In this document: piece after piece, positions 5,679 to 57,014 of the stretch
How positions within the stretch are numbered: position 1 is the first letter of the stretch
How the letters are laid out: every line of letters starts with the position of its first letter
Source of the DNA: Carposina sasakii
Lineage: Eukaryota > Arthropoda > Insecta > Lepidoptera > Carposinidae
Direction of reading: 5' to 3'
DNA length: 64,000 bases
NCBI GenBank assembly: GCA_014607495.2
Contig: CP053153.1
Coordinates: 15,190,001-15,254,000, forward strand
Program-made: the position numbers and the translations under genes
The notes under the pieces: generated by a model
The model's database searches: none
What the model was told of the DNA's origin: nothing
The model's input: only the letters and a program-made list of their open reading frames with translations

Positions 5679-6932
5679 TTACACTGTTTTGAGCAAAGAT
5701 GCAGCGACCTCAGGGGACGAGTTAAGGTCTTTTGTTGCTGAATGAGGTATACTGTCAAAGAAGTTTTGGAAAGCTGCGGCTACCTCAGAGTGAGATTTTA
5801 TGTTAACTCCATCAATCACTAAGCTAAAGCTGGAATCTCGAACGGCATTTCTTCCGGTCTCACTGTTAATTATATTCCAAGTGGTTTTAATCTTATTGGT
5901 AGATTGTTTAATTTTATTTTTTACAAAATTTGATTTTGCGTTGTTACAAACACGTTTAAATAACTTAGAATACTGTTTGACATACTCCTTGAAGGCTGAG
6001 CTGTGGTTAAACGTTTTTTCGCTATAAAGATTATATAAACGTTCTCTGCTCTTATATATGCCAGGTGTGGCCCACTCGCTAAAAACTAAACGATTACTTA
6101 TAGTAATAGATTTTGTTAAAAATACTTTATTAAACTCAGTTAATATGAGACTAAATATCGAGCTATACAATATGTTGGGATTTTCATTGTAGTGTAAGTC
6201 TTGTAATCTTCCCGTAACCTTGCCCCTAAATGATTCCATTCGATTAGATGTAATTGGCACATAAGTTATGTTTTGTTTTGTTACCTTATGTGATTTGACT
6301 GGAAAAGAGGCTAACTGTCCCCTGTGATCTGAGTCAAAATTGTCTATTAATTTACTGTATTCGGGTTTTATATTTGTAAAAATATTATCTAAACATGTAG
6401 CAGTAGTGTCCGTAATTCTTGTTGGTTCACAAAACAAATTACATAAGTTAAAAGATTGAAATAAATTTAAAAATCTCAAGCTGGCAGAAGACCTTACTAA
6501 TATGTCCGTATTGAAGTCTCCGCATATGATAATTTCTTTGCCAGAATTTATGACTTTAGATAAAACTTCCTCCATTGTAATCGAAAAGCGGTCATAATTA
6601 GCACATGGGGGGCTGTATACACTAACAACTATGAATTGTTCAACCTCAACACAAGCTAGTTCGGTTTCTCTTTCAACTGAGAGACTCACAATGTCTTTTC
6701 TTTCCTTACATTTAAGGTTTTTGTTTACTAATATTAAAGAGCCTCCTCTTATGAAGTTAACCCTATTATAGGAGCTTACTATGTGGTGGTTATTGAAGTT
6801 GAACATGAGTTGATGATCCTGTAACCAGTGTTCAGTAATACAAAAAATGTCAATGTCATAACAAGTCATGAACAACTCAACTACTAGCTCCTTTAATGGC
6901 AAGCCTTGAATATTTTGGTGTACAATATTCAT
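5679..6932 (-). CDS. LINE ORF2, AP-type endonuclease part (frameshifted from RT)
   Basis: 417 codons on the minus strand, Met start MNIVHQNIQGLPLKEL. It is an exonuclease-endonuclease-phosphatase fold nuclease that nicks target DNA for priming. Motifs in order: QNIQG (N-terminal Asn), ITEHWL (metal-binding Glu), SVYSPPCANYDRF, IICGDFNTDIL (GDFN), and FDSDHRGQLASF (terminal SDH catalytic pair). The ORF stops at SLLKTV, and the RT continues in another frame about 20 nt downstream, so a single-base indel near the A-run at about 5688-5692 explains the split. A programmed shift is possible but not supported by anything visible. Confidence 0.85.
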   Translation of the reverse strand: MNIVHQNIQGLPLKELVVELFMTCYDIDIFCITEHWLQDHQLMFNFNNHHIVSSYNRVNFIRGGSLILVNKNLKCKERKDIVSLSVERETELACVEVEQFIVVSVYSPPCANYDRFSITMEEVLSKVINSGKEIIICGDFNTDILVRSSASLRFLNLFQSFNLCNLFCEPTRITDTTATCLDNIFTNIKPEYSKLIDNFDSDHRGQLASFPVKSHKVTKQNITYVPITSNRMESFRGKVTGRLQDLHYNENPNILYSSIFSLILTEFNKVFLTKSITISNRLVFSEWATPGIYKSRERLYNLYSEKTFNHSSAFKEYVKQYSKLFKRVCNNAKSNFVKNKIKQSTNKIKTTWNIINSETGRNAVRDSSFSLVIDGVNIKSHSEVAAAFQNFFDSIPHSATKDLNSSPEVAASLLKTV

Positions 6933-7003
6933 ATTTAGTTTACTTTTACATTTATTGTCTGCAATATTATTTTTGCAAGAGCTGACCTCTGTTGTCTTAA
7001 TGG

Positions 7004-16005: not shown

Positions 16006-16442
16006 TGTCGGAGATCAAGATGTCATATCCTACAGTCGGATCTCCAACGCAATCTATTTTCAATCGTTGAAGTTAGAAACGTCAAGTCGACAGCTATCAC
16101 TGACTTGAGGACAACTGTCACTTGGGTAAAGACAAGACAGAGTACTGAGAGGGCGCCACTGTAGATTTACAACGACCAGCGGGTCGTTTGAATGGAGCCG
16201 GAGGGTATTCTGTCTTGCTGGTTGCGTCTGTCGAGCGAAGCACGGGTGCTAATCAGCCTCTGTCTTGTACTTACCACGTTTCTACGTTATCCGCTAGAAT
16301 CCTAGTAATCTTGTGCGTAGATACAGTGAAAGTGTTTGTGATTCCTAATTAAGCTTGTTTACTACACGCCGCATTCTTTATTTCGGATTTTGGAAGATGT
16401 CGGACACACCTAACGGCACGCCATTCGACCCATCTACGTCAT
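16006..16442 (+). repeat. Left 437-bp direct repeat (5' LTR plus leader plus gag start)
   Basis: Begins tgtcggagatcaagatgtca directly after an (AT)n run. The same sequence, with about three substitutions, is at 19852-20288. The repeat runs past the gag ATG (16397) by 46 bp, so it is longer than the LTR proper, whose 3' limit cannot be fixed from the sequence. Confidence 0.85.
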
Positions 16443-17140
16443 CAGAAGTGGGATGCAACCCGGATCACCCCCATGAAACACGTGCTTCAAATAGTGACTC
16501 GAGCGAAGAAAAATGGCGTCTTCTCTTCGAGCAACAAAATCAAAATTTTCTGGCGTTGGTGCAAGCAATAAAACTACCTGCATCTTCGGACTCTATTCGC
16601 CTTCCTGATTTCGACTCAGAGAAAAGAGACATCGACGCCCGAGCTTGGATAACGACCGCGGACATGTGTATCACAGATCGACATCGCCATGGATCTTCTC
16701 TGATGATCGCGTTAAGCCACGCACTCAAGGGCGAAGCATCATCTTGGCTGTCTTCAATATCGTTTCCTAATATGACGTGGGCCGATTTTAAGGAGCTTTT
16801 CGTAGCAAGGTATGACTGTCCTGAAACTGCTGCTTCCTTTCTCATCAGTATGCACGACAAGAAACCGAGAGATAACGAGTGCCTGGCCTCATACGCCGCT
16901 ACCCTCATAACAGCCTTAATGGCAAGGTGGAATGGACTGACTACAGAACAGATAGCAATAGCCACTGTCTTAGCTCATATTTCAAAACAAGAGCCACGTG
17001 TTCAGAGGATTGCTATAACGACTGACATCAAGACGCGTAACCATTTACAAAAGGAACTGAAGGCTGTCTCGTTCCTGAAGAGAAGTTATTCATCAAGTAT
17101 TTATCGTGATGGACCCGACCTAAAAAAGAAACCGACCTAA
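16397..17140 (+). CDS. Gypsy-type Gag (capsid region)
   Basis: 247 codons from ATG 16397 (MSDTPNGTPFDPSTSSEVGC). The frame is open upstream but without an ATG. Gag packages the element RNA. Recognisable features: a RLPDFDSEKRDIDARAWITT segment and the capsid-like WLSSISFPNMTWADFKELFV and DCPETAASF stretch, matching the retrotransposon Gag pattern W-x-x-F-x-x-x-F. It ends at KKKPT in one frame, and the zinc-knuckle ORF continues one base on after an A-run at 17122-17127, so the two were probably one polyprotein or joined by frameshifting. Confidence 0.75.
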   Translation: MSDTPNGTPFDPSTSSEVGCNPDHPHETRASNSDSSEEKWRLLFEQQNQNFLALVQAIKLPASSDSIRLPDFDSEKRDIDARAWITTADMCITDRHRHGSSLMIALSHALKGEASSWLSSISFPNMTWADFKELFVARYDCPETAASFLISMHDKKPRDNECLASYAATLITALMARWNGLTTEQIAIATVLAHISKQEPRVQRIAITTDIKTRNHLQKELKAVSFLKRSYSSSIYRDGPDLKKKPT

Positions 17141-17150
17141 TGGATCTGCT

Positions 17151-17627
17151 GTGACCATCAAGTGCTTTAATTGTGGACAACTAGGCCACAAATCTCTTCA
17201 ATGTCGCAACAAAGCCAATTCGAAGAAGCAAGATGACCGGTCCAAACACAGGTCCTTTCACGGGGACCATAACTCGACCAACCAACCTACAGGGAGAACC
17301 GATCGCATCACCTGCTTCAACTGCCGGGAACAAGGCCACTATGCATTCGACTGCCCGAAGAGGAAAATCAAGGAGGGGAACAACGGTACCGGCGGCGGCA
17401 CTGGAACTGGTCCAGCTAAGGAAAAGCGAGTAGACGTGTGCATTGTGAATGCGCCTTCGGGTTCTCTGCGTCACTCTGGTGAGTCATTCCCATTTACTTA
17501 CGACTCAGGTTCAGAGTGTTCCTTAGTTAAAGAATCGATTGCTTTGAAATTTAGTGGTAAGCGAATTTATGACAATGTTTCTATGACTGGTATAGGACAA
17601 ACTTCTATAGCCTCGTACATGCTCTAG
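17151..17627 (+). CDS. Gypsy nucleocapsid zinc knuckles and first protease
   Basis: 158 codons starting from a GTG in frame; the frame is open a few codons upstream (NGSAVTIK). Two CCHC knuckles are visible, CFNCGQLGHKSLQC and CFNCREQGHYAFDC (CX2CX4HX4C), which bind RNA. A retropepsin-like start follows: FPFTYDSGSECSLVKESIAL with the DSG active site. The protease is cut after about 45 residues at GIGQTSIASYML by a junction into RT sequence in another frame, so it cannot be functional. Confidence 0.75.
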   Translation: MTIKCFNCGQLGHKSLQCRNKANSKKQDDRSKHRSFHGDHNSTNQPTGRTDRITCFNCREQGHYAFDCPKRKIKEGNNGTGGGTGTGPAKEKRVDVCIVNAPSGSLRHSGESFPFTYDSGSECSLVKESIALKFSGKRIYDNVSMTGIGQTSIASYML

Positions 17628-17848
17628 GCGATCTCGTGAACAAGTACGTTGTAGTGTACATGGATGACGTGCTAGTTGTGGCCAGTAACATCGACGAAGC
17701 TTTCGATAGACTAAAGGTAGTATTAGAAGTTCTTTCTGGGAAGGGATTTTCGTTAAATCCTAAAAAGTGCTCATTCCTGAAAGAAAAAGTAGAGTACCTA
17801 GGCTTCGAGGTGCGCCGAGGTCAAATTCGTCTGAACCACGAAAGATAG
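17628..17848 (+). pseudogene. First RT fragment (YMDD)
   Basis: Open stretch reading ALGDLVNKYVVVYMDDVLVV then ASNIDEAFDRLKVVLEVLSG and FSLNPKKCSFLKEKVEYLGF. This is the RT palm motif C plus the KCSF and YLGF motifs of Ty3/gypsy polymerases. The fingers and palm A/B are absent upstream and the frame stops at NHER, so it is an internal deletion product of about 70 codons. Confidence 0.75.
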
Positions 17849-17851
17849 TTG

Positions 17852-18314
17852 CACTTACCGCTTTCCACCGACCGGCGCTCTTAATAATCAAGGTAGATTT
17901 TATGATTTTCATTTTGATTCGGGTGCTGAGTGTTCACTAATAAAAGAAAGCGTTGCATCAAGTTTCAATGGTAAAAGAATTGCTAAAACTGTCTCTCTAA
18001 CGGGAATTGGTCAAACCAGTGTATTCAGCACCCAGCAAATACTGTGTAATGTTGAAATTAATGATTATTGTTTAGAACTTTTATTACATGTTTTACCCGA
18101 TGTGTATATGCGTAGTGATATTATGCTAGGTCGTGAAATATTGAGTCAAGGCTTCGTTATTGACTTGTCAACAAATAATTTTAGCATTTCAAAACAAAAT
18201 AATTTGACAGTTTTAAATTGTGACGTTTTAACCGATTCTAGTATCAGTAACGACTTTAGTAATGTTGACACAGATATACCCTCTTGTAAAAAGTCAGATC
18301 TTTTAACTATTTAA
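17852..18314 (+). pseudogene. Second protease fragment, related to but different from the first
   Basis: An open frame reads TGALNNQGRFYDFHFDSGAE then CSLIKESVASSFNGKRIAKT and SLTGIGQTSVFS. It parallels the first protease (DSGSECSLVKES, GKRIYDNVSMTGIGQTS) with many substitutions, and extends further to MRSDIMLGREILSQGF. The D-S-G active site is intact. Its flanks are junctions with other pieces; no start codon applies. Confidence 0.7.
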
Positions 18315-18605
18315 GGTGAATATTCCAGTTATTTTACAACAGGTTTGCCAAAAACTCGTGTAACTACAGGTGAACTCGAAATTCGATTAATTGATCCGAA
18401 GTATAGAGGTCCTTTTAGGGTATCGGAGGTACTTGAAGGTAATCGTTATGTTCTTAAAGCCCTTAATTCCAATAGAACCTATAAGTATGCACATGACAGA
18501 CTTAGGCGAATGCCTGCGAATGACATTACCAATGACATGCTGACATGTGACCGTGATGATAATCTGTGCGAACTTGACGGGGATGGACCGTCATGTTCAA
18601 ATTAA
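18315..18605 (+). pseudogene. Integrase C-terminal fragment 1
   Basis: Reads GLPKTRVTTGELEIRLIDPK then YRGPFRVSEVLEGNRYVLKA and SNRTYKYAHDRLRRMP, ending in a stop after an acidic tail. The P-K-Y-x-G-P-F-x-V pattern is the end of a Ty3/gypsy integrase (GPF/Y module). The catalytic core is absent. Confidence 0.7.
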
Positions 18606-18656
18606 TGTTGAGTTGACTGATTGAGAGTGGTTTACGGATACCGGATAGAGGTATTC

Positions 18657-18800
18657 AAGAGTCACTGGATGGAAGTGACTAGACTGGTATACGGAAGCTG
18701 GATGGAAGTTTCTAAGAGTCACTGGATGGAAGTGACTAGACTGGTATACGGAAGCTGGATGGAAGTTTCCAAGAGTTGCTAGATTGAGGCAACTAGACTT
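18657..18800 (+). repeat. 57-bp tandem repeat inside the mosaic element
   Basis: Units begin with aagagtcactggatggaagt at 18657 and 18714, with a diverged partial third unit from 18771. The unit itself contains shorter ctggatggaagt repeats. The position, after an integrase end, corresponds to the 3' non-coding zone of a gypsy element. Confidence 0.75.
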
Positions 18801-18828
18801 ACTTGACTGACGTTACTCTATATGGATT

Positions 18829-19220
18829 GTGTATACTGTAGCCTTGTTTTGGAATTATTTACCTTGTTCAGTTTATCAGCGGGCTATAGCAAAAGCTTTA
18901 GGTGAATTAGCTCATAGTTATATTGTTTCTTACATTGATGACCTGCTGGTATTGTATTCTACAGGAGAGCAAGGGTTGGAACGTCTACGACGTGTCTTAG
19001 ATGTGTTCATTAAGAATGAAAAACGTAATCAAGTTAAACTAGATCCTAAATTTTAAGGACCGTATAAAATTTAATTGTTAGATGGTGATAGATACCGACT
19101 AAAATCTTTGTCTTCAAATCGAACCTACAAATATTCGCACGATCGGGTCCGTAGGGTGCCAGACCATCAAGTTCCTAGTAATTTTGATATCGAAATTAAT
19201 GTGACCTCAGAGTCTAAATG
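18829..19220 (+). pseudogene. Second RT fragment fused to integrase C-terminal fragment 2
   Basis: Starts LPCSVYQRAIAKALGELAHS then YIVSYIDDLLVLYSTGEQGL (RT motif C as YIDD), runs to LRRVLDVF and joins in frame with KNEKRNQVKLDPKF. After a stop it continues GPYK, LLDGDRYRLKSLSSNRTYKY and SHDRVRRVPDHQ, a second integrase GPY/F end. Both pieces differ in sequence from their counterparts at 17628 and 18315, so they derive from another related element. Confidence 0.7.
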
Positions 19221-19340
19221 AATGAATTTTCATATGCGATGTACAAGTTACTGACCGGTTTTTTAAATTGTGACTTTGACAAACCCTTGACAGACAGTAG
19301 TATGTATTTGTGGCAGAACCGAAGGACCGAGTTTCTGCTG

Positions 19341-19485
19341 TAGCCGATGGACAGTGCTACATGTGTGTGTGTGGGAAACCGAAGGACCGTGTTTCCGTAG
19401 TAGGTAGCCGATGGACTGTGCTACATGTGTGTGTTGGAAACCGAAGGACTGTGTTTCCATAGTAGATAGCCGAAGGACTGGCTAT
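19341..19485 (+). repeat. About 63-bp tandem repeat before the right LTR
   Basis: Units start tagccgatggac at 19341 and 19405 with a partial third at 19467. Each includes a gtgctacatgtgtgtg string and a gaaaccgaaggac string. It lies in the 3' non-coding zone next to the right direct repeat. Confidence 0.75.
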
Positions 19486-19851
19486 ATGACTAACTGTTAC
19501 TGTAATGTTGACCGAAGGAAAGGTCTGACTGATTTAAACGTATGTGCGAGTCTGCTTATCTTTTATTTTTTATGTCTTTACGTAAAGATTTTGGGAACTT
19601 GACGGTCGATGAGCGATTTTTGTGATTTCATGAACTATTGTAATAAGAAGTCTTTAAATTTAAGTTAAGGCAGAATGGCCGAGCGCAGATACTTCCTTGA
19701 GTTATCTTGTTCACAGATTCATCGGTTCTACCCGAGGACGGGTAGTCTGTCAAAATGGTCAGAAAGACCGAGCGTGATACATGTTACTTTGCAAAATCCT
19801 CTTTCTTTCCAGAAACCCCACGCGAGGACGCGTGAATTGTCAAAATGGCCG

Positions 19852-20288
19852 TGTCGGAGATCAAGATGTCATATCCTACAGTCGGATCTCCAACGCCATC
19901 TATTTTCAATCGTTGAAGTTAGAAACGTCAAGTCGACAGCTATCACTGACTTGAGGACAACTGTCACTTGGGTAAAGACAAGACAGAGTACTGAGAGGGC
20001 GCCACTGTAGATTTACAACGACCACCGGGTCGTTTGAATGGAGCCGGAGGGTATTCTGTCTTGCTGGTTGCGTCTGTCGAGCGAAGCACGGGTGCTAATC
20101 AGCCTCTGTCTTGTACTTACCACGTTTCTACGTTATCCGCTAGAATCCTAGTAATCTTGTGCGTAGATACAGTGAAAGTGTTTGTGATTCCTAATTAAGC
20201 TTGTTTACTACACGCCGCATTCTTTATTTCGGATTTTGGAAGATGTCGGACACACCTAACGGCACGCCACTCGACCCATCTACGTCAT
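19852..20288 (+). repeat. Right 437-bp direct repeat (3' LTR plus leader plus gag start)
   Basis: Copy of 16006-16442. It ends at tctacgtcat, after which sequence passes into atatatataatcacacc of an unrelated repeat. Carrying the start of gag, it looks like the head of a second tandem copy cut off after 17 codons. Confidence 0.85.
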
Positions 20289-20650: not shown

Positions 20651-20666
20651 CTATAATATCTTTTCT

Positions 20667-21050
20667 TATACAGGATGATTTTTGGTCGTCAACGTTCCCG
20701 AAAACTACGGAATCTCCTCATCATCACGATCATTTTTCTCCATGGAAGCATACCTGGGAAGTGTCTGGTTTCCAAAGTATTAGGGTCCAAAATTGTGTAA
20801 ATAGACTGCGTTTTTCTGCATAAATGCACATAGACGCGCGTAGCAGGATTTTTTCACGAAAAATAATTAATATCTGTCTATAAAAAAAACTAACATAAAC
20901 ACTAGACACTATAAATTTCGCACGATCAAGGAATTAAAAATTAAAAAAAAAAAATCCCAGCATTTTTTTTGGCATAAACTTACTTTATTTCATGTATAGA
21001 ATACGTACCCTTCGTTAAAGGTGGCCACAAAAAAACATCCTGTATATCTT
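20667..21050 (+). mobile_element. MITE family M3 copy 3
   Basis: tatacaggatgatttttggt to aaaaaaacatcctgtata. Full-length with both terminal inverted repeats. Confidence 0.8.
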
Positions 21051-22610: not shown

Positions 22611-22838
22611 GCCGCATGGTGCCGGCAGAGTAGAATTCGTACCACCCGTGTCTGCCCGTGTGGTGGTGGGCAGCAGCGCCTCTCGTGTTGACAACATAGT
22701 CCAAAATACAAACTGCGATCACCAACCCGCCTGCCCAGCGTGGTGACTATGGGCAAATACCCCCCACGACAGTCTCGTGGCTTGCCCTGGGGGGGCCTAC
22801 ATCCAGCAGTGGACTGCAACACGCTGATGATGATGATA
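22611..22838 (+). mobile_element. SINE-like family R1 copy 1
   Basis: gccgcatggtgccggcagag to ggactgcaacacgctgatga with (tga)n. The interior cggtcaccaacccgcctgcc-type block is shared with the other R1 copies. Confidence 0.75.
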
Positions 22839-24020
22839 ACTTTTACAAGGCTTATTTCTGCTTTTATCCCATAGGTCACATGGACGACGTCACAGCCTAG
22901 AAAATATTTAGTATACCAACTATCTTAAACTGCACAGGCCGTCGACGTATTCTTAATTTAAGATACTGCTCATATTAAAATTCCTGCAGCAGAGTCTCGT
23001 TTAGTCGGAATTTAAATTTTTCGCATGTAACACGCTAAAGCACTAGACTGTGAGGCAATTCCATTGTGATGCGCCAAGGGACAAGAGTTACCGCCGGTGC
23101 ATGCAAACCATGGTCTCAGGCATGAAGGTAGACCTAAGTAGAGATGCAACAACATACCTACTATACACATACATATAGTAGGTGGTATAGTAGGTCTACA
23201 ATAGATGCTAACATTGTTAAAAATATTAATCGATCTTTGATATGGAGTCATGGATTTTTCTATAATAATCTTTGAAGTTACTTACCGTTACTGTGGGACT
23301 GCTAATAATGGGAACTCTGAATCATCTTGTAGACTACCTATCGCTACATAAACCTATCACCGGCTAACTTGAAATTGCAGCCATTTTGCTATTTTTTGCT
23401 CGTCCCTCCACTCTCTCCTTACTTCACGTTGAGTTCTAACGCCAACTTTTGTGACACCAGTTCGCTTCGCAATTGAACTGTCACCTTTATTTTCCGCTGT
23501 TATACAGAATGTAACAGAAGTATGTTAAGCGATAAAATTGCCAACACCTAAAATAAAAATAAAATTCGTCTACATTTGCATAATAATAGGATTATGAAGG
23601 TCGATCATGCGAAAAAGTTATGTCAATATTAAAGTGAATTAAGTTTGATTAACTTCTGGAGTAGAGGTGTGATGAAAAATCATTATATATTTAACATTTG
23701 AAGAAGAATGTTTTTAAATTAACACTGAAAAAGTAAACATCTCTTATAGAATCAACATAGAAGACACCTTCTTCGAGCAGCATAACAACATTAAAAGACC
23801 CTTCGCTTAAAAACACCTTCTATTACAAATTACAACTTACAAGTTCATGCCCTACTCTACGGGCAATTAAAAAGAAACATCAAATAGAAAGACACTTGTA
23901 CAAAATAAATCTTTTGCATTCCAAACATGCCGTTTGCTAGTGTAAAAAAAGATAAAGTCGGTTGTGGGCTGTGAACATTTTGGTTTTTTCGTTGTTTTGT
24001 CGGCAGCTAGGGCTGCGGGG
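22839..24020. other. Unannotated intron sequence
   Basis: Only the short M4 arm at 23503 and a tatagtaggtggtatagtag string (23173) were noticed. Confidence 0.45.
23503..23550 (+). mobile_element. MITE family M4 fragment (left arm)
   Basis: tatacagaatgtaacagaag followed by tatgttaagcgataaaa resembles the M4 start; no right arm was found. Confidence 0.45.
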
Positions 24021-26122: not shown

Positions 26123-26303
26123 TTCATCATCATCATCAGCCTATTGCAGTCCACTGCTGGACGTAGGCCTCCCCCAGGGCACGCCACAAGACTGCCATTG
26201 GGGGTATTTGCCCATAGTCACCACGTTGGGCAGGCGGGTTGGTGACCGAAGTTTGTATTTTGGACTATGTTGTCAACACAGGAGGCGCTGCTGTCCACCT
26301 CCC
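26123..26303 (-). mobile_element. SINE-like family R1 copy 5, 5'-truncated, inverted
   Basis: (atc)n then agcctattgcagtccactgc through ggcgctgctgtccacctccc, where the family homology stops. Confidence 0.75.
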
Positions 26304-28704: not shown

Positions 28705-29245
28705 AGGGGGCCATTCCCGAAAAATCTCGAGTTGGAACGAAGCCGAAACGGAACCGTTGTAGATGCTCAGAATAAAGCAATAATTACTTTACGGTGACGT
28801 AATTAGCCGCGTGGTGCCGGCAGAGTAGAATTCATACCACCCCATGTCTGCCCGTGGGTATCGTACGAGGCGATTAAGGGTTTCCGGGAGGTGGGCAGCA
28901 GCGCCTCCCGTGTTGACAACATAGTCCAAAATACAAACTGCGGTCACCAACCCGCCTGCCCAGCGTGGTAACTATGGGCAAATACCCCCCACGGCAGTCT
29001 TGTGGCTTGCCCTGAGGGAGGCCTACGTCCAACAGTGGACTGCAATAGGCTAATGATGATGATGACGTAATAAGACACATTTCAGCACGAGACAAATATT
29101 TGTTTTTATTCTGTCACTCGCGACCGATGCGTGCTAAAATATACCTTATTACTCAAGAGGTAAGTATATATTGCTTTGCACAGCGTTTCGTTAACGGTTC
29201 TTTAGTGGTTGCGTTTCGGCTCAAAAACTTTCAAGAATTGCCCCC
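28705..29245 (+). mobile_element. MITE family M6 copy 1, split by R1
   Basis: Starts agggggccattcccgaaaaa and ends tcaagaattgccccc. Arms gaagccgaaacggaaccgtt and cgttaacggttctttagtgg / gcgtttcggctc. An R1 element is inserted at 28806-29066, with gacgtaat on both sides. Confidence 0.75.
28806..29066 (+). mobile_element. SINE-like family R1 copy 2 (nested in M6)
   Basis: gccgcgtggtgccggcagag to ggactgcaataggctaatga with (tga)n. Flanked by gacgtaat on both sides, a target duplication in M6. Confidence 0.8.
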
Positions 29246-29620: not shown

Positions 29621-30223
29621 TTCTCACTACAATATAAAGGCATGGCTATCAAAGTCAAGTTATAAACCCTACCGCATTAAAATTCACGAGCCGGCCGACC
29701 TTACCTTTCGACTTTGATTCTCCATCTTACGAGTATATCACCACGAAACTAGACAGAACTGTGGGGCATACATAAAATATGCAACGTATTGACTGTTGCG
29801 CAGTGCGACACGGTTCCACGTTTGCGGCCTCAGAGGGCGAATTTGACGCGGTTGGGACTCTGGCAAAGTAAACAAGGATGAAGCCCGTGAGAATTCGAGC
29901 GTTGATTTGTTTAATCTAAGTTTAAAGCTTAATCTATAGATTAAAGGAGATGTTACGAGTACTACTGACATATAGACATACGCTGAATTTACGGTTGTTG
30001 GTAGAAACGTGAAATTTTGGACCGCGGCTTCATTTTATGACGTAATAGATCCACTAAAAAGGGATTTTAAAAATTCGAACCCTAAAGAGGTAAAATTAGG
30101 TGTTAGAAGTTAATATGAAAAAATATTAACTTTTTTTTTTAATTCCTCAAATTACTGTTTTAAGGGTAGCTAAAGAGGTGATAAAGTAAAAGTGGACAAA
30201 ATCGCAGACAAAAAGCTAATTTA
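29621..30223. other. Unannotated intron sequence
   Basis: No feature recognised between the M7 arm and the M3 copy at 30224. Confidence 0.45.
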
Positions 30224-30604
30224 TACAGGTGATGTTTGGTCGGCAACGTTCCCGAAAACTACGGAATCTCCTCATCATCACGATTATTTTTCTCCATGGA
30301 AGCATACCTGGGAAGTGTCTGGTTTCCAAAATATTAAAGTCGAGTAAATAGACTGCGTTTTTCTGCATAAATGAACATTGACGCGGTTAGCAAGATTTTT
30401 TCATGAGAAATAATTAATATATGTCTATGAAAAAACTAGTATAAGCACTGGTGCCTATAAATTTCGCCCGATCAAGTAAATAAAAAAAAAAAACAAAAAA
30501 TTTACATCGTTTCCCAGCATTTTTTTTTTGGCATAAACTTATTTTATTTGATGTACAGAGTACGTACCCTTCATTAAGGGTGGCATCGAAAAACACCTGT
30601 ATAG
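30224..30604 (+). mobile_element. MITE family M3 copy 4
   Basis: tacaggtgatgtttggtcgg to gaaaaacacctgta, both ends present, TA on each side. Confidence 0.8.
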
Positions 30605-30940
30605 TAAAATTGTCTATTGGTTTAAATCAATTTATCATATTACGCCAACGACTTACAAGGCAACTTGTTATTTTAAAACTAGCCGTAATGAGGATTTCCG
30701 ATTACAGTTAGAATCCTAGTTTCGTATCAGAAACAAGAAAGAAAATAACTTTTAACAGAAAAATACTGGCAATATATTCTAGATGATTATTGGAGAAATG
30801 GTGCTAAATACTCCTTTATTAAGAGTACATAAAAAAAATTGGTATATCACTGGGCAGAACACAGAGTGCCTACATGTACATTTTTTTAAAACGTGTCTAC
30901 CTGTCATTTACAGATAATATACTTGATTTGAGAATTACAT

Positions 30941-31273
30941 ACAGGATGTTTTTTGGTCGTCAACGTTCCCGAAAACGTCATCACGATCATTTTTCTCCAT
31001 GGAAGCATACCTGCGAAGTGTGTGGTTCCCAAGATATTAGGGTCCAAAGTTGAGTAAATAGACTGCGATTTTCTGCATAAATGCACATAGACGCGCGTAG
31101 CAACATTTTTAATATCTGTCCATAAAAAAACTAACATAAACACAGGACTCTATAAATTTCGCCCAAGCAAGTAAATAAATAAAAAATCAAAAAAAATACC
31201 TTCTTTCCCAGCATTTTTTTTTTTGGCATAAACATCCCTTCGTTAAGGGTGGTAACGAAAAAATACCCTGTAT
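30941..31273 (+). mobile_element. MITE family M3 copy 5
   Basis: tacaggatgttttttggtcg to cgaaaaaataccctgta. Internal deletions relative to copy 4. It ends about 35 bp before the BEL insertion. Confidence 0.8.
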
Positions 31274-31305: not shown

Positions 31306-31310
31306 GCACC
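31306..31310. repeat. Target-site duplication, left (gcacc)
   Basis: Five bases directly before the BEL left LTR, repeated at 37306-37310 directly after the chimeric right end. Confidence 0.8.
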
Positions 31311-31573
31311 TGTTTACACCAACTGCTCATAGATGGCAGCACACGTAACTTTAAAACGCGCTATCGTTAGATGTCTTGTTCTCCACCGATACAACTCAAA
31401 TTAATTTCAATACACTGTTCTTTCCTCTATTCCGGTTGTTTCATTTAAAGGCCTCTTGGTACGATACGCCGCAGCCATTTGGTCCTTCGGTGCTTGGATT
31501 ACGGTATAATTTCGCGTGTGTTGTGTTAAGTGGTTTAGTGATTAAAGTTAAAAGTGATTGTGAGTAAGTGACA
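31311..31573 (+). repeat. BEL left LTR
   Basis: Starts with tgtttacacc. The 3' limit is inferred from a gtgaca end (31568-31573) before an A-run, because the right LTR lacks this part for comparison. Only 31311-31481 can be verified as LTR. The remaining part (from gtccttcggtgcttgg) would be the downstream LTR segment. Confidence 0.7.
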
Positions 31574-31869
31574 AAAAAAAAAAAGGGACTTGGTCGTAAG
31601 TAATAGACGATAAGCAGAAAGACTTGTAAAAATTTCTATATTGTGTTTGTGGACTTAGAATAATTTTCAATAGTTCGGACTTGTAAAAATATCGAAGTGT
31701 TTCGTTTACATTATAACAAAAACTTATAATATATATTCCTTTGAAGTTAAAAGACTTGTAGAATTTTTATATCAGAACATTAACTTAGTGCATTTAGTGA
31801 ATTAGACTTCGTAATATCTTTAATATTTGGAGATTTTAGTGAATTTTGTCGACTTACCTACATTTCGTC

Positions 31870-34800
31870 ATGGAAAAAATAAATCAACTACTTAGTATGC
31901 AAGATGATAGATTTAGTCAGATTAAAACTGCACAAATTAATTATCATAAATCACCGAAGACGAGAATCGTATTAAGTTATATAGATACGCGTTTAGAAAC
32001 GTTGGAGAAAACTTGGCAATCATTTAGATCAACTCACGATCAACTCATAGCTTATATCCCTAAAGAACAAAGAAGCGCTTTGGGTTATTTTGCGGATGAT
32101 GTCTATTTTGAATGCGAGGAGATATACATAACCTATAAAAGTGAATTAAAAACAAAGTTAGCTGAACTTATGCTTGCCGATAACACGAAATCGCAAATTA
32201 TATCACAAAACAAAACTACATCTGCGGAGATCAAATTACCGAGAATAAATATACCTACCTTTTCTGGCAAATATACTGACTGGCCGTCGTTTCACGACTT
32301 ATTTAATTCGATTATTCATACAAATTCAACATTAGATAATGTACAAAAATTACATTACTTGAAATCTAGTTTGACTGGAGAAGCTGAACAGCTGTTGAAA
32401 CCTATATCTATAACTAGTCAAAATTATGATCTGGCTTGGAAAACATTACTTAATCGTTACAATAACAAAAAATACATATCAAATTGCATCTTTAAGAGAC
32501 TTTTTGGGATTAAAAATATATCTAATGAATCTGCATTATTTATAAAACAACTCTTGGATACTACAAATGAATGTTTGAATTCATTAAAGAATCTTGGTCT
32601 AGAGGTCAACCATTGGGATGCGATCATTATTTATATGACAGTTTCAAAATTAGACACAGAATCTCTTAGATTATGGGAACAACATATTTCTTCAGAGGGC
32701 AATGAATTTACTGAATATGACACATTGAAACAATTTTTAGAAACCAGATTTAGAACTTTAGAGATGGTTGAAAATACACAAAAACCCAACAAACCTAAGA
32801 CATTTCACGCCTCTGTAGAAACAGCTAGATGTGCGTTCTGTAAGGAAAATCATCATATTTACCAATGTAGTCAGTTTGCAAAACAGTCATATAAAGATAG
32901 AACTGAATTTGTACAAAATAATAATCTGTGCTTTAATTGCCTCATACCGAATCATATGGCATATAAATGTTTGCGAAATACATCTTGCCGCATCTGCCAG
33001 AAAAAGCACCATTCATTATTACACCCGGAGAGAAAAGAATCTGTGAAAGAAGATTGTCAAAAAGATCAAAAACAAAACATAGTATCACATTTTGTAAATC
33101 AACCTGGTCAAATATTATTGGCCACCGCACTGGTGGACGTGGCTGCGCGCCATGGTCAGAAACAAGTCTACCGTGCTCTCATTGACCAGGGGTCACAGGC
33201 CTCGTTCGTAACAGAAGATCTGGTTCAGACTTTGAGTTTGAAGAGAGTTAAAATCAACGGCGTGGTCTCGGGATTGAGTGAAGGAAAAACACTTCGTACG
33301 AAGTATATGGTTGAAGTAAACCTGAAGTCTAGATGCAATACAAACTTCACTGTCCTCGTTAAAGCATATGTTCTGAAATCAATAACTAACAACTTACCTA
33401 CACAGCTAATTACAGTATCTAACTGGCCTGAGATAGAGAGTATTACATTAGCAGACCCTGGATTTAATTTGCCAAATAAAATCCATATACTGCTAGGCGC
33501 CGATGTGTATAGTAAAATCATAGATACTGGATTACTGAAGAGTCCAACTGGGATTATAGCACAGAGTACACAACTAGGCTGGATTCTATCTGGTGATACT
33601 AGCAACACAAAACCTGAAAAACAAAAAGAAATAATTAGTATGCATTTATGTATGTGTGAAGATAATACACTTAAAAAATTCTGGGAAATAGAAAACGAAA
33701 CATATACTGCTGAAAGAAAGATGACAAAAGAGGAAGAGAGATGTGAAAACATATATAAGAAAACTACAACTAGAATAGATACTGGAAGATACAAAGTCAA
33801 CTTACCTTTCAAAGAAAATATAGTAACACCTGTGAAAAAATGTGGAGAGACAAAGAAAATAGCTATATCTAGATTACAACAACTCGAAAAAAGATTTAAA
33901 TATGATACAAAGCTTAAAGAAGAATATAGTAAAGTTATACAAGAATATCGTGATCTAGGACACATGATAATAGCTAATGAAGACAAAGAAGACGTATTAT
34001 ACTTACCACATCACGCTGTCATAAGAAACGACAAAGATACTACAAAAGTACGAGTAGTGTTCGATGCGTCGGCAAAGGGTTCAAAGGGGTACTCATTAAA
34101 TGACACTTTACTCACTGGACCTACAATACAAAATGATTTACGTACCTTGATTATGGCATGGAGACAACACAAAATAGCAATAGTTAGCGACATTGTAAAA
34201 ATGTATAGACAGATACTTGTGAATGACGAAGATGCTGAGTATCAACGCATAGTTTGGAGAGATGAGCCTGGGGAAGAATTTACAACGTACAAATTACTTA
34301 CCGTCACTTTCGGCACCGCTTCTGCTCCATACTTAGCGGTACGAACTCTAACACAAGTTGCAGAAGATGAAGGTCACAAATATCCTGAAACAGCTGAAAT
34401 AATAAAAAGCTCCTTCTACATGGATGATTTGATGACAGGAAGCTATGATGAACAACATGCTATTCAAATTTATAAAGAAATCACTGAAATATTGCAAAAA
34501 GGCGGATTCGAATTGCAAAAGTGGTCAAGTAATTCTGATAGTTTTCTAGAAAGGATAACACAAACAAAAGAAAAGACACAACAATTTGAGATAAAGTTTG
34601 ATAAGATAATAAAAATACTAGGGTTATCATGGGATAGGGTTGATGACAAATTTAAATTTTCTGTAAAATTACCTGATGCTCCAACTTTAATAACTAAACG
34701 AAGTGTGTTGTCTGAAGTAGCACGCTTATTTGATCCCTTCGGGTGGCTATCGCCAACAATCATTAAAGCTAAAATCCTTATTCAAAAGCTTTGGATGTGT

Positions 34801-36981
34801 CCGACAGAGTGGGACGAACCGTTGGCATCCGAACTGCGAGAAGAATGGCTATCATATCGAGAACAACTATCTGAACTTCATAACGTTAGAATAGATAGAT
34901 GGATAAGAACCCACCCAAACAATGATTTTGTTGAAATACATGGGTTCGCTGACGCTTCTACTTCAGCATATGCTGCTGTTCTTTATGTGCGAGTAGTAGA
35001 AGAAGATGATGTTCATGTTACAATACTAACTAGTAAAACTAAGGTAGCACCATTAAAACAAATTTCGGTTGCTCGATTAGAGTTGTGCGCAGCAGTTTTG
35101 CTATCTAAATTGCTTTGTGAAGCTGCTAGTATATTAAAAATACCTAAAAATCAAATTTATGCGTACACTGATTCGATGATCGTTCTGGCGTGGATAGAGG
35201 CCCAACCAATACGATGGCAAACATTCGTCGCCAACCGCGTGACTGAAATACAAAACAACATTAATCATGATAGATGGAACCACGTAGCTTCGGAAGATAA
35301 CCCAGCAGATCTTGCGTCGCGAGGAGTCGACCCTGTAGAACTGAAGACAAAGACAATATGGTGGAAGGGACCTGAATGGTTACAGAAAATATCCATAGAC
35401 ATAAAGAAAAGGGTAGTACCGGAAACAAACTTAGAAGAACGAAGACAACATACAAAAGTATTTCATTATGAAGTAGAAAAGTATATTTGGGAAGATTTTT
35501 CGTCATTAAATAAATTGATAAGAGTACTGAGTCAATGTCGAAGATATTTTCATTGGAAGAAAGTCAGAGAAGAAAAACGTACTTACCTTACATCCGAAGA
35601 GTTGAGACTAACATTAAACACATGCATTAGACAGACACAAGAACAAGCATTTGAAGAAGAAATTAACGATCTGAAAGAGAAAGGAAAGTTAAAATACAGA
35701 AGTAAATTAATAACATTAGCACCTTACCTGGACGAGAATGGCCTCCTGCGTGTTGGTGGTCGATTACAAGCTGCAAATATATCATATGACAGCAAACATC
35801 CAATCATACTTCCAAATACAAGTCATTTAACAACGTTGATAGTAAAAGATGCACACATGAAGTTGTTACATGGTGGTATTGCATTGCTAATGAATTACTT
35901 GCGCAGTCGTTACTGGATTATAAGCCTGAAGCCTTTAGTAAAGAAATGCTTCCGACAATGCACTGTTTGTATACGACACAAAGCCATAACATCGCAACCA
36001 CAGATGGGAGAGCTTCCGAGTGTAAGAGTAAATCCCGGAAGACCTTTCGAAACGAGTGGCGTCGATTTTGCTGGACCCATACAGATGCGCGTATCAAAGG
36101 GTAGAGGTCAAAAATCATTCAAGGGCTATATTGCTCTCTTTATATGTTTAAAAACAAGGGCGATTCACCTTGAAGCTGTGAGTGACTTGACCACCCAAGG
36201 GTTTATCGCAGCGTATCGCCGATTTATATCACGCCGTGGACATTGCTCGGAATTATGGAGCGATAATGGATTAAACTTTGTTGGTGCAGCGAAAGAATTA
36301 ACCCAACGATTGAATGAGAGTATAAATAATGTAGCGAAAGAAGTTGCAGAGTTAATAGCCAATGACGGCACAACCTGGCATTTTATACCTCCTAGAGCAC
36401 CCAATTTTGGTGGGATTTGGGAATCTGGAGTTAAATCAGTTAAAGGGCATTTAATTAAGTCGATTGGAGATTCGACCTTAACCTTTGAAGAGATGACGAC
36501 TTTGTTAAGTCAAATCGAGGCATGTCTCAATTCACGCCCGCTAAGTCAATTGAGTGAACACCCTGATGATTTAGCTCCTCTAACACCTGCACATTTTTTG
36601 GTTGGGGGACCCTTAGTTACTATTCCTGAAAAAATTGATACAAACGAAGTGATAAGTCCTTTGCACAGATGGAGAATGATTCAAAAAATGATGAAAAATT
36701 TCTGGGACAGATGGTCTAAGGAATTCCTACATACTTTACAACAGAGACACAAATGGCAAGTTAAAACGAACACACCTAAAATAGGAGATGTTGTAATTAT
36801 TAAAGAAAAGGACTTACCACCTACAAAATGGCTACTAGCGTTAATCACAGATATACATCCTGGTCCAGACAATGAAATAAGAGTAGTAACTCTGAAGACA
36901 AAAAACAGTACACTCAAACGACCGGTATCAAAACTTATATTTTTGCCTAAAGATGAGGATAAGACACCAGTAGATGGTTAA
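31870..36981 (+). CDS. BEL/Pao Gag-Pol polyprotein, intact
   Basis: 1703 codons from ATG 31870 (MEKINQLLSMQDDRF), no internal stop. Domains in order (residues approximate): Gag with the FSGKYTDWPSFHDLFNSII and LTGEAEQLL motifs of the BEL family (130-260); zinc knuckles CAFCKENHHIYQC (320) and CFNCLIPNHMAYKC (355) plus a CRICQKKHH motif; aspartic protease LIDQGSQASFVTEDL (435); RT with VVFDASAKGSKG (730) and YMDDLMTG (850); RNase H with GFADASTSAYAAVLY (1025) and YTDSMIVLAWI (1098); integrase with the HHCC region ending CTVCIRHKA, D of VDFAGPI, D of WSDNGLNF and E of GIWESGVKS (1330-1520); and a C-terminal chromatin/DNA-binding-like end (KWLLALITDIHPG). All enzymatic signatures are present; no envelope gene follows. 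Confidence 0.92.
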   Translation: MEKINQLLSMQDDRFSQIKTAQINYHKSPKTRIVLSYIDTRLETLEKTWQSFRSTHDQLIAYIPKEQRSALGYFADDVYFECEEIYITYKSELKTKLAELMLADNTKSQIISQNKTTSAEIKLPRINIPTFSGKYTDWPSFHDLFNSIIHTNSTLDNVQKLHYLKSSLTGEAEQLLKPISITSQNYDLAWKTLLNRYNNKKYISNCIFKRLFGIKNISNESALFIKQLLDTTNECLNSLKNLGLEVNHWDAIIIYMTVSKLDTESLRLWEQHISSEGNEFTEYDTLKQFLETRFRTLEMVENTQKPNKPKTFHASVETARCAFCKENHHIYQCSQFAKQSYKDRTEFVQNNNLCFNCLIPNHMAYKCLRNTSCRICQKKHHSLLHPERKESVKEDCQKDQKQNIVSHFVNQPGQILLATALVDVAARHGQKQVYRALIDQGSQASFVTEDLVQTLSLKRVKINGVVSGLSEGKTLRTKYMVEVNLKSRCNTNFTVLVKAYVLKSITNNLPTQLITVSNWPEIESITLADPGFNLPNKIHILLGADVYSKIIDTGLLKSPTGIIAQSTQLGWILSGDTSNTKPEKQKEIISMHLCMCEDNTLKKFWEIENETYTAERKMTKEEERCENIYKKTTTRIDTGRYKVNLPFKENIVTPVKKCGETKKIAISRLQQLEKRFKYDTKLKEEYSKVIQEYRDLGHMIIANEDKEDVLYLPHHAVIRNDKDTTKVRVVFDASAKGSKGYSLNDTLLTGPTIQNDLRTLIMAWRQHKIAIVSDIVKMYRQILVNDEDAEYQRIVWRDEPGEEFTTYKLLTVTFGTASAPYLAVRTLTQVAEDEGHKYPETAEIIKSSFYMDDLMTGSYDEQHAIQIYKEITEILQKGGFELQKWSSNSDSFLERITQTKEKTQQFEIKFDKIIKILGLSWDRVDDKFKFSVKLPDAPTLITKRSVLSEVARLFDPFGWLSPTIIKAKILIQKLWMCPTEWDEPLASELREEWLSYREQLSELHNVRIDRWIRTHPNNDFVEIHGFADASTSAYAAVLYVRVVEEDDVHVTILTSKTKVAPLKQISVARLELCAAVLLSKLLCEAASILKIPKNQIYAYTDSMIVLAWIEAQPIRWQTFVANRVTEIQNNINHDRWNHVASEDNPADLASRGVDPVELKTKTIWWKGPEWLQKISIDIKKRVVPETNLEERRQHTKVFHYEVEKYIWEDFSSLNKLIRVLSQCRRYFHWKKVREEKRTYLTSEELRLTLNTCIRQTQEQAFEEEINDLKEKGKLKYRSKLITLAPYLDENGLLRVGGRLQAANISYDSKHPIILPNTSHLTTLIVKDAHMKLLHGGIALLMNYLRSRYWIISLKPLVKKCFRQCTVCIRHKAITSQPQMGELPSVRVNPGRPFETSGVDFAGPIQMRVSKGRGQKSFKGYIALFICLKTRAIHLEAVSDLTTQGFIAAYRRFISRRGHCSELWSDNGLNFVGAAKELTQRLNESINNVAKEVAELIANDGTTWHFIPPRAPNFGGIWESGVKSVKGHLIKSIGDSTLTFEEMTTLLSQIEACLNSRPLSQLSEHPDDLAPLTPAHFLVGGPLVTIPEKIDTNEVISPLHRWRMIQKMMKNFWDRWSKEFLHTLQQRHKWQVKTNTPKIGDVVIIKEKDLPPTKWLLALITDIHPGPDNEIRVVTLKTKNSTLKRPVSKLIFLPKDEDKTPVDG

Positions 36982-37032
36982 TTGTGCTATGATGTGTGTT
37001 TAGAAGAAGAACAGGGTTCTTGGTGGCCGGAA

Positions 37033-37305
37033 TGTTTACACCAACTGCTCATAGATGGCAGCACACGTAACTTTAAAACGCGCTATCGTTAGATGTCTTG
37101 TTCTCCACCGATACAACTCAAATTAATTTCAATACACTGTTCTTTCCTCTATTCCGGTTGTTTCATTTAAAGGCCTCTTGGTACGATACGCCGCAGCCAT
37201 TTGTGTTGCTAGTATCACCAGATAGAATCCAGCCTAGTTGTGTACTCTGTGCTATAATCCCAGTTGGACTCTTCAGTAATCCAGTATCTATGATTTTACT
37301 ATACA
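37033..37305 (+). repeat. BEL right LTR, chimeric
   Basis: 37033-37203 is identical to 31311-31481. 37203-37305 is the reverse complement of 33506-33608 (pol), joined through the shared tetranucleotide tttg (37200-37203). The last bases ataca end in CA, and gcacc follows as target duplication. The normal downstream part of the LTR is missing. Confidence 0.9.
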
Positions 37306-37310
37306 GCACC
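37306..37310. repeat. Target-site duplication, right (gcacc)
   Basis: Same five bases as 31306-31310. It begins at the first base after homology to the inverted pol copy ends. Confidence 0.8.
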
Positions 37311-39880: not shown

Positions 39881-41878
39881 ATATTAGGATGCCTTAATTT
39901 GTCACTTCGTCGTCGTTATATTAGTTGCCTTTGATAATATCAGAGTTTTTAGAAAATTGTACTTTAGAGTACCTACTCGTATATAGAATCGTATGTCTTT
40001 GGTCGATTAACAATGTGTACACATTCGGGAAACAAAGCGTGATTTTATGTACATGAGTAAAACTTACGGCCAAAGTCAACGTTTTGCAAACAGTCGTTTA
40101 TACACTCGACTACGGCAAAGCCAAGAGGAAGAAGTGTTTAAGCAGTATCTATCTATGTACTCGTATTTGGTAATAAATAGGATAATAATAATATCGCAGA
40201 TGTTTGAATCTGATCATAGATGGAACTAGGCCTATGATGATTTTGGTAATCATTTATCTGATATACAAAGATTGCAATAGTTACATTTTAGAAAAAAAGA
40301 TTGAGTACGTTCGTGACTTGCATGTTACACAGTTCGTCGACCTCATCAGTTATTTAGTTCTGCAGCAGCTGGTTTTGTTTCCTGCTCCTGAATGCATTTA
40401 TTTTTAATTCAGTAATACGGTTGACGGGAAACTTTATATCTTTGAGAAGAATTCGAACAAGATGTTTTCCAAATCGTATACCAATTTCAATGTCTATATT
40501 AAACGAGGCTGAGGGATCTTTGTTACAATCCTACATCCGGTTCTATTACGCCTACTTAGCGAAGAGATACGCCTTGCCTTTGGCGAGTATAAGCTAGCCT
40601 AGCCATAATAGCCATCAAATGGACAACATTCTGTATTCCTTTTGAGTCGCACCTTCACTGACATAGCTGATAACTGATATTAGAGCTCTCTCAGCCGCTC
40701 AAGGACCTAGTCTCTGGCGAAAACCTCACCAACTTGCACTGGGTAGACTCATGGTTCGATGCCCCCTCGATCCTATGATAATAAGCCGTAAACATACATA
40801 CAATATGATTTATTCCCTTAGCGTCGATTCTCTGATTACTATTTATCCGCATTCTATAGAATTTCTCGTCAATAAATAACTATGAATACATTTTTCAAAT
40901 GTTTGTAAATATTACATACACAATGTGAAAACAGCGGCAATAAAAAGCAACAGCAACAGACAGGCCCTAACAAACAACAGGCGGGGAGCACTTAGTCTTC
41001 TATACGGCCACAGATTGGGCACTTTCAGCCGACTTTTTAAGTGGAAAAACACTGTTTTTAGCTAAATACATTCGCACGTTCACTTTTATTGGTGTTTGAT
41101 TGCTTTTTCCGGGTTTTGTGGTACTCTGCTAGTGTTTTAAATATCTGCGCTGTGGTTTATTGCATATGCTGTGTAATTGATTTTTTAATGGGGCTCCGTG
41201 ATCTGATTTTGAAATAGTTACAGATTGTTGCTGGGTATACAGTTTTGTATAATGAATTTCGGGGTAATTAATATGTCATGTTTACTTTACGTGAATATGA
41301 AGGCTGATAGGGATGAATTAGGAAATGAAAACATGTCGTTGCTAATTGGGGTCATTAATCAAAGGATATGCAATTTAATTAGGCAGTATATACTGCAATG
41401 ACAATGTGCTAATTTGGACAAAAGGTTTACATAGCTATGAACAATAAAAATATCAAACCTAAAATATTGATAATTTTAAATTGTTACAGATTTAATTTAA
41501 ATAAAAGGTGTTAAATATTTCCATTCTTTTCATTTCTATCCTATTATCGTAATACCGTATAAGTACTTACGTAAAGCCTTTAAATATTTCCGTTATTGAC
41601 CATAAAATGTTGCGAAAAACCTATAAACATCTCAACATACATAATGAACAACCAGCACGTTTAATCTTGTCAAATGCGAAGCCTAAAAAATATTCTACTC
41701 TAAGTTTAAAATATATTCGTTGTATTTTCTCAGTAGAGTACAATAAAAAATACTCAAGAATTTGTCTAAAAATGCGACAGCTGTAATCTATTTAGAATGA
41801 CAATATTTTAAGACATGGTTATTCCATTTTGAATGTGACGGTTACTATTTTATTAGACAGGTGATTGAATTACTTTAA
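39881..41878. other. Unannotated intron sequence
   Basis: AT-rich; short open frames near 40047-40407 have no recognisable motif. Confidence 0.45.
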
Positions 41879-42118
41879 GCCGCGTGGTGCCGGCAGAATA
41901 GGATTCGTACCACCCCATATCTGCCCGCGGGTATAGTACGAGGCGATTAAGGGTTTCCGGTAGGTGGGCAGCAGCGCCTCCCGTGTTGAAAACATAGTCC
42001 AAAATAAAAACTGCGGTCACCAACCCGCCTGCCCAGCGTGAGTCTTGTGGCGTGCCCTGGGGGAGGCCTACGTCCAGCAGTGGAATGCAATAAGGCTGAT
42101 GATGATGATGATGATGAT
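41879..42118 (+). mobile_element. SINE-like family R1 copy 3
   Basis: gccgcgtggtgccggcagaa to ggctgatgatgatgatgatg. A block near the middle (gactatgggcaaatacccc) is deleted. Confidence 0.8.
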
Positions 42119-56685: not shown

Positions 56686-56953
56686 TCATCATCATCATCA
56701 TCATCATCATCAGCCTATTGCAGTCCACTGCTGGACGTAGGCCTCCCCCAGGGCACGCCACAAGACTGCCATGAGGGTATTTGCCCATAGTCACCACGCT
56801 GGGCAGACGGGTTGGTGACCGCAGTTTGTATTTTGGACTATGTTGTCAACATAGGAGGCGCTGCTGCCCACCTCCCGGGAACCCTTAATCGCCTGTACGA
56901 TACCCACGGGCAGACTTGGAGGTGGTACGAATTCTACTCTGACACCACGCGGC
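56686..56953 (-). mobile_element. SINE-like family R1 copy 4, inverted
   Basis: Starts with (atc)n then agcctattgcagtccactgc and ends gacaccacgcggcc. Full length in reverse orientation. Confidence 0.8.
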
Positions 56954-57014
56954 CAACAACATATACATACACAAATCTATAATAATCATCCACTTCATAT
57001 TATATTACTCACAC

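Follow-up and report, generated by a model that had tools for sequence, protein, structure and literature searches.

The closest described parallels to the insertion reported here, a BEL/Pao long terminal repeat (LTR) retrotransposon that spans positions 31311-37305 of a 64,000-nucleotide stretch of Carposina sasakii DNA (contig CP053153.1, positions 15,190,001 to 15,254,000; this whole stretch is "the window" below), are aberrant proviruses of human immunodeficiency virus type 1 (HIV-1) and avian sarcoma-leukosis virus (ASLV), in which the viral 3' end has been lengthened by the copying of viral sequence, with short homology at the joint (PMC5041404). The BEL/Pao copy resembles them in having a 3' end that appears to be extended by copying with short homology, namely a 106-nt inverted copy of its own coding region that overlaps the sequence before it by TTTG. 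It differs from the viral cases in that there one end is put in by host enzymes and large duplications or deletions of host DNA result, whereas the BEL/Pao copy is flanked on each side by GCACC, a normal short duplication of exactly 5 bp, and its tail ends in CA.

Achilles of the olive fly is, like the present element, a BEL/Pao retrotransposon with a TG...CA LTR and a tRNA-Tyr primer binding site, which by the figure legend lies two bases past the LTR (LTR of 674 bp, site at 677-690; the text gives 672 bp) (PMC4580426). Its LTR of about 672-674 bp differs from the 167 bp found here, and its 3' LTR was not isolated, so the right ends are not comparable. In cqgypsy_1 of Culex foreign sequence also lies at the boundary of LTR and primer site, but it is a 149-bp tRNA dimer inside the element, beside the 5' LTR and flanked by a 26-bp repeat, rather than a tail outside the right LTR (PMC3286476). 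Our literature search, mainly of titles and abstracts and covering few subscription papers, brought up no description of a BEL/Pao copy tailed in this way. To our knowledge no standard BEL/Pao product has this right-end structure, as an earlier note on this DNA had also stated. In Ty1 complementary DNA (cDNA), "untidy ends", that is, extra bases gained at the cDNA ends during reverse transcription, were reportedly described by Mules et al. in 1998; these are short additions and not long interior copies. The earlier statement stands for BEL/Pao elements and needs qualifying with regard to retroviruses, in which the copying of viral sequence onto the 3' end of the LTR is known (PMC5041404).

Structure of the right end

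The first 171 bases of the element recur without a difference at its right side (31311-31481 and 37033-37203, 171/171), with no further matching base on either side; the alignment bears out what the earlier note had said of the LTRs. That note had described the sequence after 37203 as an exact inverted copy of pol. The copy is indeed exact, bases 37203-37305 being the reverse complement of 33506-33608, but the maximal exact inverted match starts at 37200; it is 106 nt long (37200-37305 versus 33506-33611, 106/106) and overlaps the LTR-like copy by the four bases TTTG at 37200-37203, which leads to a different reading of the right end (see below). With 106 of 106 bases identical, a chance origin of the inverted match can be rejected. 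GCACC stands at 31306-31310 and again at 37306-37310, and, just as had been noted before, the coding homology stops at the very base where the second GCACC starts, so that the element ends in TATACA directly before the duplication. The same repeat pairs were recovered by a repeat finder and by BLAST within the window. These identities, the four-base overlap, the duplication and the terminal CA are direct observations.

Because GCACC is found at only 0.00036 of the window positions, an exactly placed repeat of it is unlikely to be due to chance. Target duplications of BEL/Pao elements are 4-6 bp long, 5 bp being a usual integrase size, and the GCACC duplication fits this range in the one family copy examined. 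What departs from the class is that the right LTR is not directly followed by the target duplication, as 106 nt lie between its inferred end and GCACC.

Position of the LTR end

Read past the shared part, the left side of the element runs GCAGCCA, then TT, then TGGTCCTTCGGTGC; the context of the left LTR end is CA, TT, TGGTCCTTCG, a two-base spacer followed by a putative tRNA-Tyr-type primer binding site. The expected site was composed of TGGT, presumably corresponding to the discriminator base and CCA of the tRNA, and CCTTCGA. Being built on the mouse tRNA-Tyr primer, which may differ from the host's own tRNA, this predicted site agrees with the window at 10 of 11 bases, and the match is confined to the first 10. 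The mouse primer starts CCTTCGA (PMC12239594). The arrangement CA, two nucleotides, TGG occurs in 31311-31845 at the primer site only (0.43 occurrences expected from the window frequency), and there is no further exact match of TTTGGTCCTTCG in the window.

Since the spacer TT and the tRNA-Tyr-type site come next, the LTR most likely comprises 31311-31477, or 167 bp, a boundary drawn from one copy. Weak points of this boundary are that 167 bp seems short beside the LTR of Achilles, that neither an AATAAA nor a TATAWA word was found in 31311-31600, in which there is one TCAKTY word (at 31441), and that the purine tract preceding the right LTR is poorly developed. If the boundary is correct, the right LTR (37033-37199) is complete, with the coding segment added past the LTR end and not substituted for part of it. 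The claim that the right LTR is chimeric, its own end replaced by pol sequence, is accordingly not supported, and a truncated or replaced right LTR is disfavoured by the primer-site boundary. The two LTRs are identical (167/167), which suggests that the insertion is recent.

The TTTG overlap is made up of exactly the spacer TT and the two bases that open the primer site. The junction between LTR and tail therefore probably sits at the point expected for the terminus of a linear cDNA, whether or not this carried two tRNA-derived bases. Of random points in 535 nt about 1% would hit one of the five junction positions, and an overlap of at least four bases with TTTGG... is available at 72 of 5535 interior positions.

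Origin of the tail

On balance we lean towards an extension of the cDNA, in which the U5 3' end primed on the element's own sense strand and was extended, and integrase then joined the new end in an ordinary reaction. The retrotransposon would have made an almost normal linear cDNA whose U5 3' end read ...GCAGCCATT, perhaps with TG copied from the tRNA primer. This end could have paired through TTTG with CAAA (33608-33611) of the sense strand, either genomic RNA or a displaced plus strand, and been extended by about 102 nt in the direction of 33506; after possible trimming by integrase, the resulting ...TATACA end would then have been joined to host DNA together with the normal left end in a paired reaction, giving the 5-bp GCACC duplication. 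We infer this order of events, as we do the LTR boundary and the action of integrase on the new end; the extension may have been made by reverse transcriptase or by a host polymerase, on an RNA or a DNA template, between which the sequence alone cannot tell.

Extension of the cDNA is favoured by the exact 5-bp duplication, the CA end (CA occupies 0.060 of the window positions), the TTTG overlap, the place of the junction at the inferred LTR end and the likeness of the last hexamer to the U3 end. The proposal of the earlier note that the rearranged end was present on the DNA before integration draws support from the start of GCACC at the point where the homology stops and from the terminal CA, and falls short of proof. 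Two hexamer comparisons, both chosen after the sequence was seen, point in opposite ways: TATACA agrees at 5 of 6 bases with the U3 end TAAACA, a level reached by 21 of the 354 CA-ending hexamers of the reverse-complemented interior, and also at 5 of 6 with the TATAAA of the host before GCACC, a level reached by only 3 of the 354. In its likeness to U3 TATACA is joint best, with the CA end at 33504, among the 13 CA ends in 33400-33611 (212 nt).

Several points weigh against cDNA extension. The likeness of the tail end to host TATAAA fits a switch of polymerase from element to host DNA. Both the LTR end and the 5-bp size of the duplication come from a single family copy. Folding of 33486-33631 gave no support for an RNA structure that would mark the stop at 33506 (z -1.58; 17 of 200 shuffles were as good). 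An abnormal viral end may fail to be processed or integrated by integrase, and host enzymes can insert it (PMC8705849); host polymerases, moreover, lengthen an unjoined viral 3' end with either viral or host strands as template (PMC5041404).

The last points lead to the main alternative, which we regard as rather unlikely, namely one-ended integration completed by host repair, as documented for HIV and ASLV. Only the left end would have been joined by integrase, and a host polymerase would have extended the free U5 3' end on the element strand, switched to host DNA at the target and completed the joint. The TTTG overlap at the junction agrees with this, and the 5/6 match of the tail end to host TATAAA speaks for it; the exact 5-bp duplication and the CA end speak for cDNA extension, as the host duplications of HIV and ASLV usually far exceed this size, with lengths of up to hundreds or thousands of bp, or give way to deletions (PMC5041404), and the CA would have to be a product of chance. 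The match at the second joint also contains a mismatch at the penultimate base, which leaves an unbroken overlap of one base. The same junction and overlap would be expected if the minus strand had been wrongly primed, by a piece of the element's sense RNA with CAAA at its end that replaced tRNA-Tyr on TTTG 31478-31481 and later served as template for the plus strand; the last base of such a fragment would pair with the base adjoining the LTR end, and self-priming is known in Tf1, where element RNA acts at the primer binding site (PMC7175516), a likeness that holds under this explanation only. The BEL/Pao copy differs from Tf1 in that the primer would be a coding fragment, in one copy. Self-priming elements of the Tf1 type have an RNA 5' end complementary to the primer binding site; the site seen in the BEL/Pao copy is of the tRNA-Tyr type. 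Wrong priming would have just four paired bases and, given a normal left LTR and primer site, a second, normally primed molecule would be needed for the left end; we think it improbable.

A change after insertion, or an artefact of assembly or amplification, would need to put the 106 nt at precisely the point between the CA of the LTR and the duplicated GCACC, and nothing would make a chimeric artefact break off at the target duplication; such an origin is highly improbable. Even more doubtful is self-integration, in which integrase would join the U5 CA end to the cDNA minus strand between 33611 and 33612 and the product would later be trimmed and inserted. The junction does lie exactly after the inferred terminal CA, as strand transfer predicts, but the expected appendage would run for about 2.3 kb up to a left LTR, not for 106 nt, unless it was recut, and the TTTG overlap would be chance (72/5535 positions); tail length and overlap thus disfavour it. 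The idea that the target had carried an earlier copy of the coding piece before the insertion was rejected, as the duplication would then come after 37199 and not after 37305.

Extension of a 3' end is a known step, and what is unusual in the cDNA extension that we favour is that an ordinary 5-bp duplication accompanies it. The insertion is one copy of an element whose class is known and whose end is uncommon: a coding segment appears to have been added to it without replacing the end of the LTR, and the enzyme that inserted it may have used an end other than its normal one. We give an even chance to the narrower proposition that the BEL/Pao integrase carried out a normal paired insertion with a non-LTR end, the newly copied coding piece ending in TATACA. 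If it did, CA and a few loosely matching neighbouring bases would suffice for this integrase, and genomes could acquire tails copied from element RNA, with target duplications of the normal kind, that escape LTR-finding programs. If the tail was on the cDNA at the integrase step, the locus would be a naturally preserved case of a copying error that got past integrase into the genome, and the end-sequence need of BEL/Pao integrase would become testable. Annotation that expects the target duplication right after the right LTR will misread tailed copies. If the LTRs are complete, as read here, the tail itself should not reach daughter copies, since the frame is open and the unit bounded by the two LTRs does not include the tail. 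More speculatively, a transcript reading through the right LTR into the tail, which repeats 106 nt of the coding region in inverted orientation, could fold back and pair internally.

The element and its relatives

The features of the element are collected in Table 1.

Table 1. Features of the BEL/Pao element and its flanks (positions in the window)
Feature	Positions	Strand	Basis
Left copy of target duplication, 5-bp GCACC	31306..31310	.	sequence comparison
Left LTR, TG...CA, 167 bp	31311..31477	+	end inferred from primer binding site
Spacer TT between LTR and primer binding site	31478..31479	+	inferred
Putative tRNA-Tyr-type primer binding site, TGGTCCTTCG	31480..31489	+	10/11 bases equal to site predicted from tRNA-Tyr acceptor strand
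gag-pol frame, open, 1711 codons, BEL/Pao domains	31846..36981	+	frame listing, profile search
Source segment of the tail, in gag-pol frame upstream of reverse transcriptase domain; final four bases CAAA	33506..33611	+	
GGTGGCCGGAA, adjoins right LTR; plus-strand primer position	37022..37032	+	inferred from position
Right LTR, complete if LTR is 167 bp; equal to left LTR	37033..37199	+	sequence comparison
106-nt tail, exact reverse complement of 33506-33611, ends TATACA; opening TTTG common to left spacer/primer site	37200..37305	-	
Right copy of target duplication, GCACC	37306..37310	.	sequence comparison

The gag-pol frame, searched against Pfam in three consecutive pieces, has matches above cut-off to DUF1759, RVT_1, Peptidase_A17 (Pao), Integrase_H2C2 and DUF5641 and a match to rve below it (22.7 versus 32.6 bits); BEL/Pao gag and pol domains are present in one frame. 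The LTR pair is of the TG...CA form of the class, the TG starts being observed and the CA ends (31477 and 37199) following from the primer site. The putative tRNA primer binding site beside the left LTR, with its TT spacer and 10 of 11 predicted bases, likewise agrees with the class. No Pfam family matched the piece around the source segment (32800-33700). A 315-amino-acid piece of the reverse transcriptase has 1178 protein matches at E <= 0.001, and the three best among the 120 matches listed, from Epargyreus (61% identity), Papilio (66%) and Choristoneura (54%), are all from Lepidoptera. The frame coincides with a strong plus-strand excess of A in 32001-36000 (AT skew 0.181, versus -0.05 to 0.06 in the remaining 4-kb steps).

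BLAST of pieces of the element against the 64-kb window gave no third copy. Two pattern scans of viral contigs found no relatives, one being without a pattern match and the other having 27 pattern matches and 0 relatives. A scan of genome contigs gave 13 pattern matches and one distant relative, contig L001 (JACERO010000106.1), which at 6001-6993 encodes a BEL/Pao-like reverse transcriptase with 33% identity to that of the element. Among the direct repeats of at least 60 nt found in this contig none brackets the BEL-like match, and a primer-site search in it gave one near match with one mismatch, which is the chance level (0.57 expected). The contig is filed as part of a Nitrosopumilus metagenome-assembled genome and, given this reverse transcriptase, probably represents animal DNA that was wrongly assigned to an archaeal bin.

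Neighbouring repeats

A second LTR-type element lies at 16006-20288. Its direct repeats of 437 bp (16006-16442 and 19852-20288) are 99.3% identical, TATATA stands on both outer sides, and a frame at 17151-17627 encodes zinc knuckles. A dispersed repeat of about 300-390 bp, which looks like a family of short mobile elements, is present at 2020-2356, 20666-21046, 30217-30603 and 30939-31233 in copies that are 75-84% identical, two of them directly upstream of the BEL/Pao element. Another dispersed repeat, of about 180-265 bp, occurs in both orientations at 26124-26303, 28803-29065, 41878-42118, 56691-56956 and 22611-22848, with copies about 80-96% identical.
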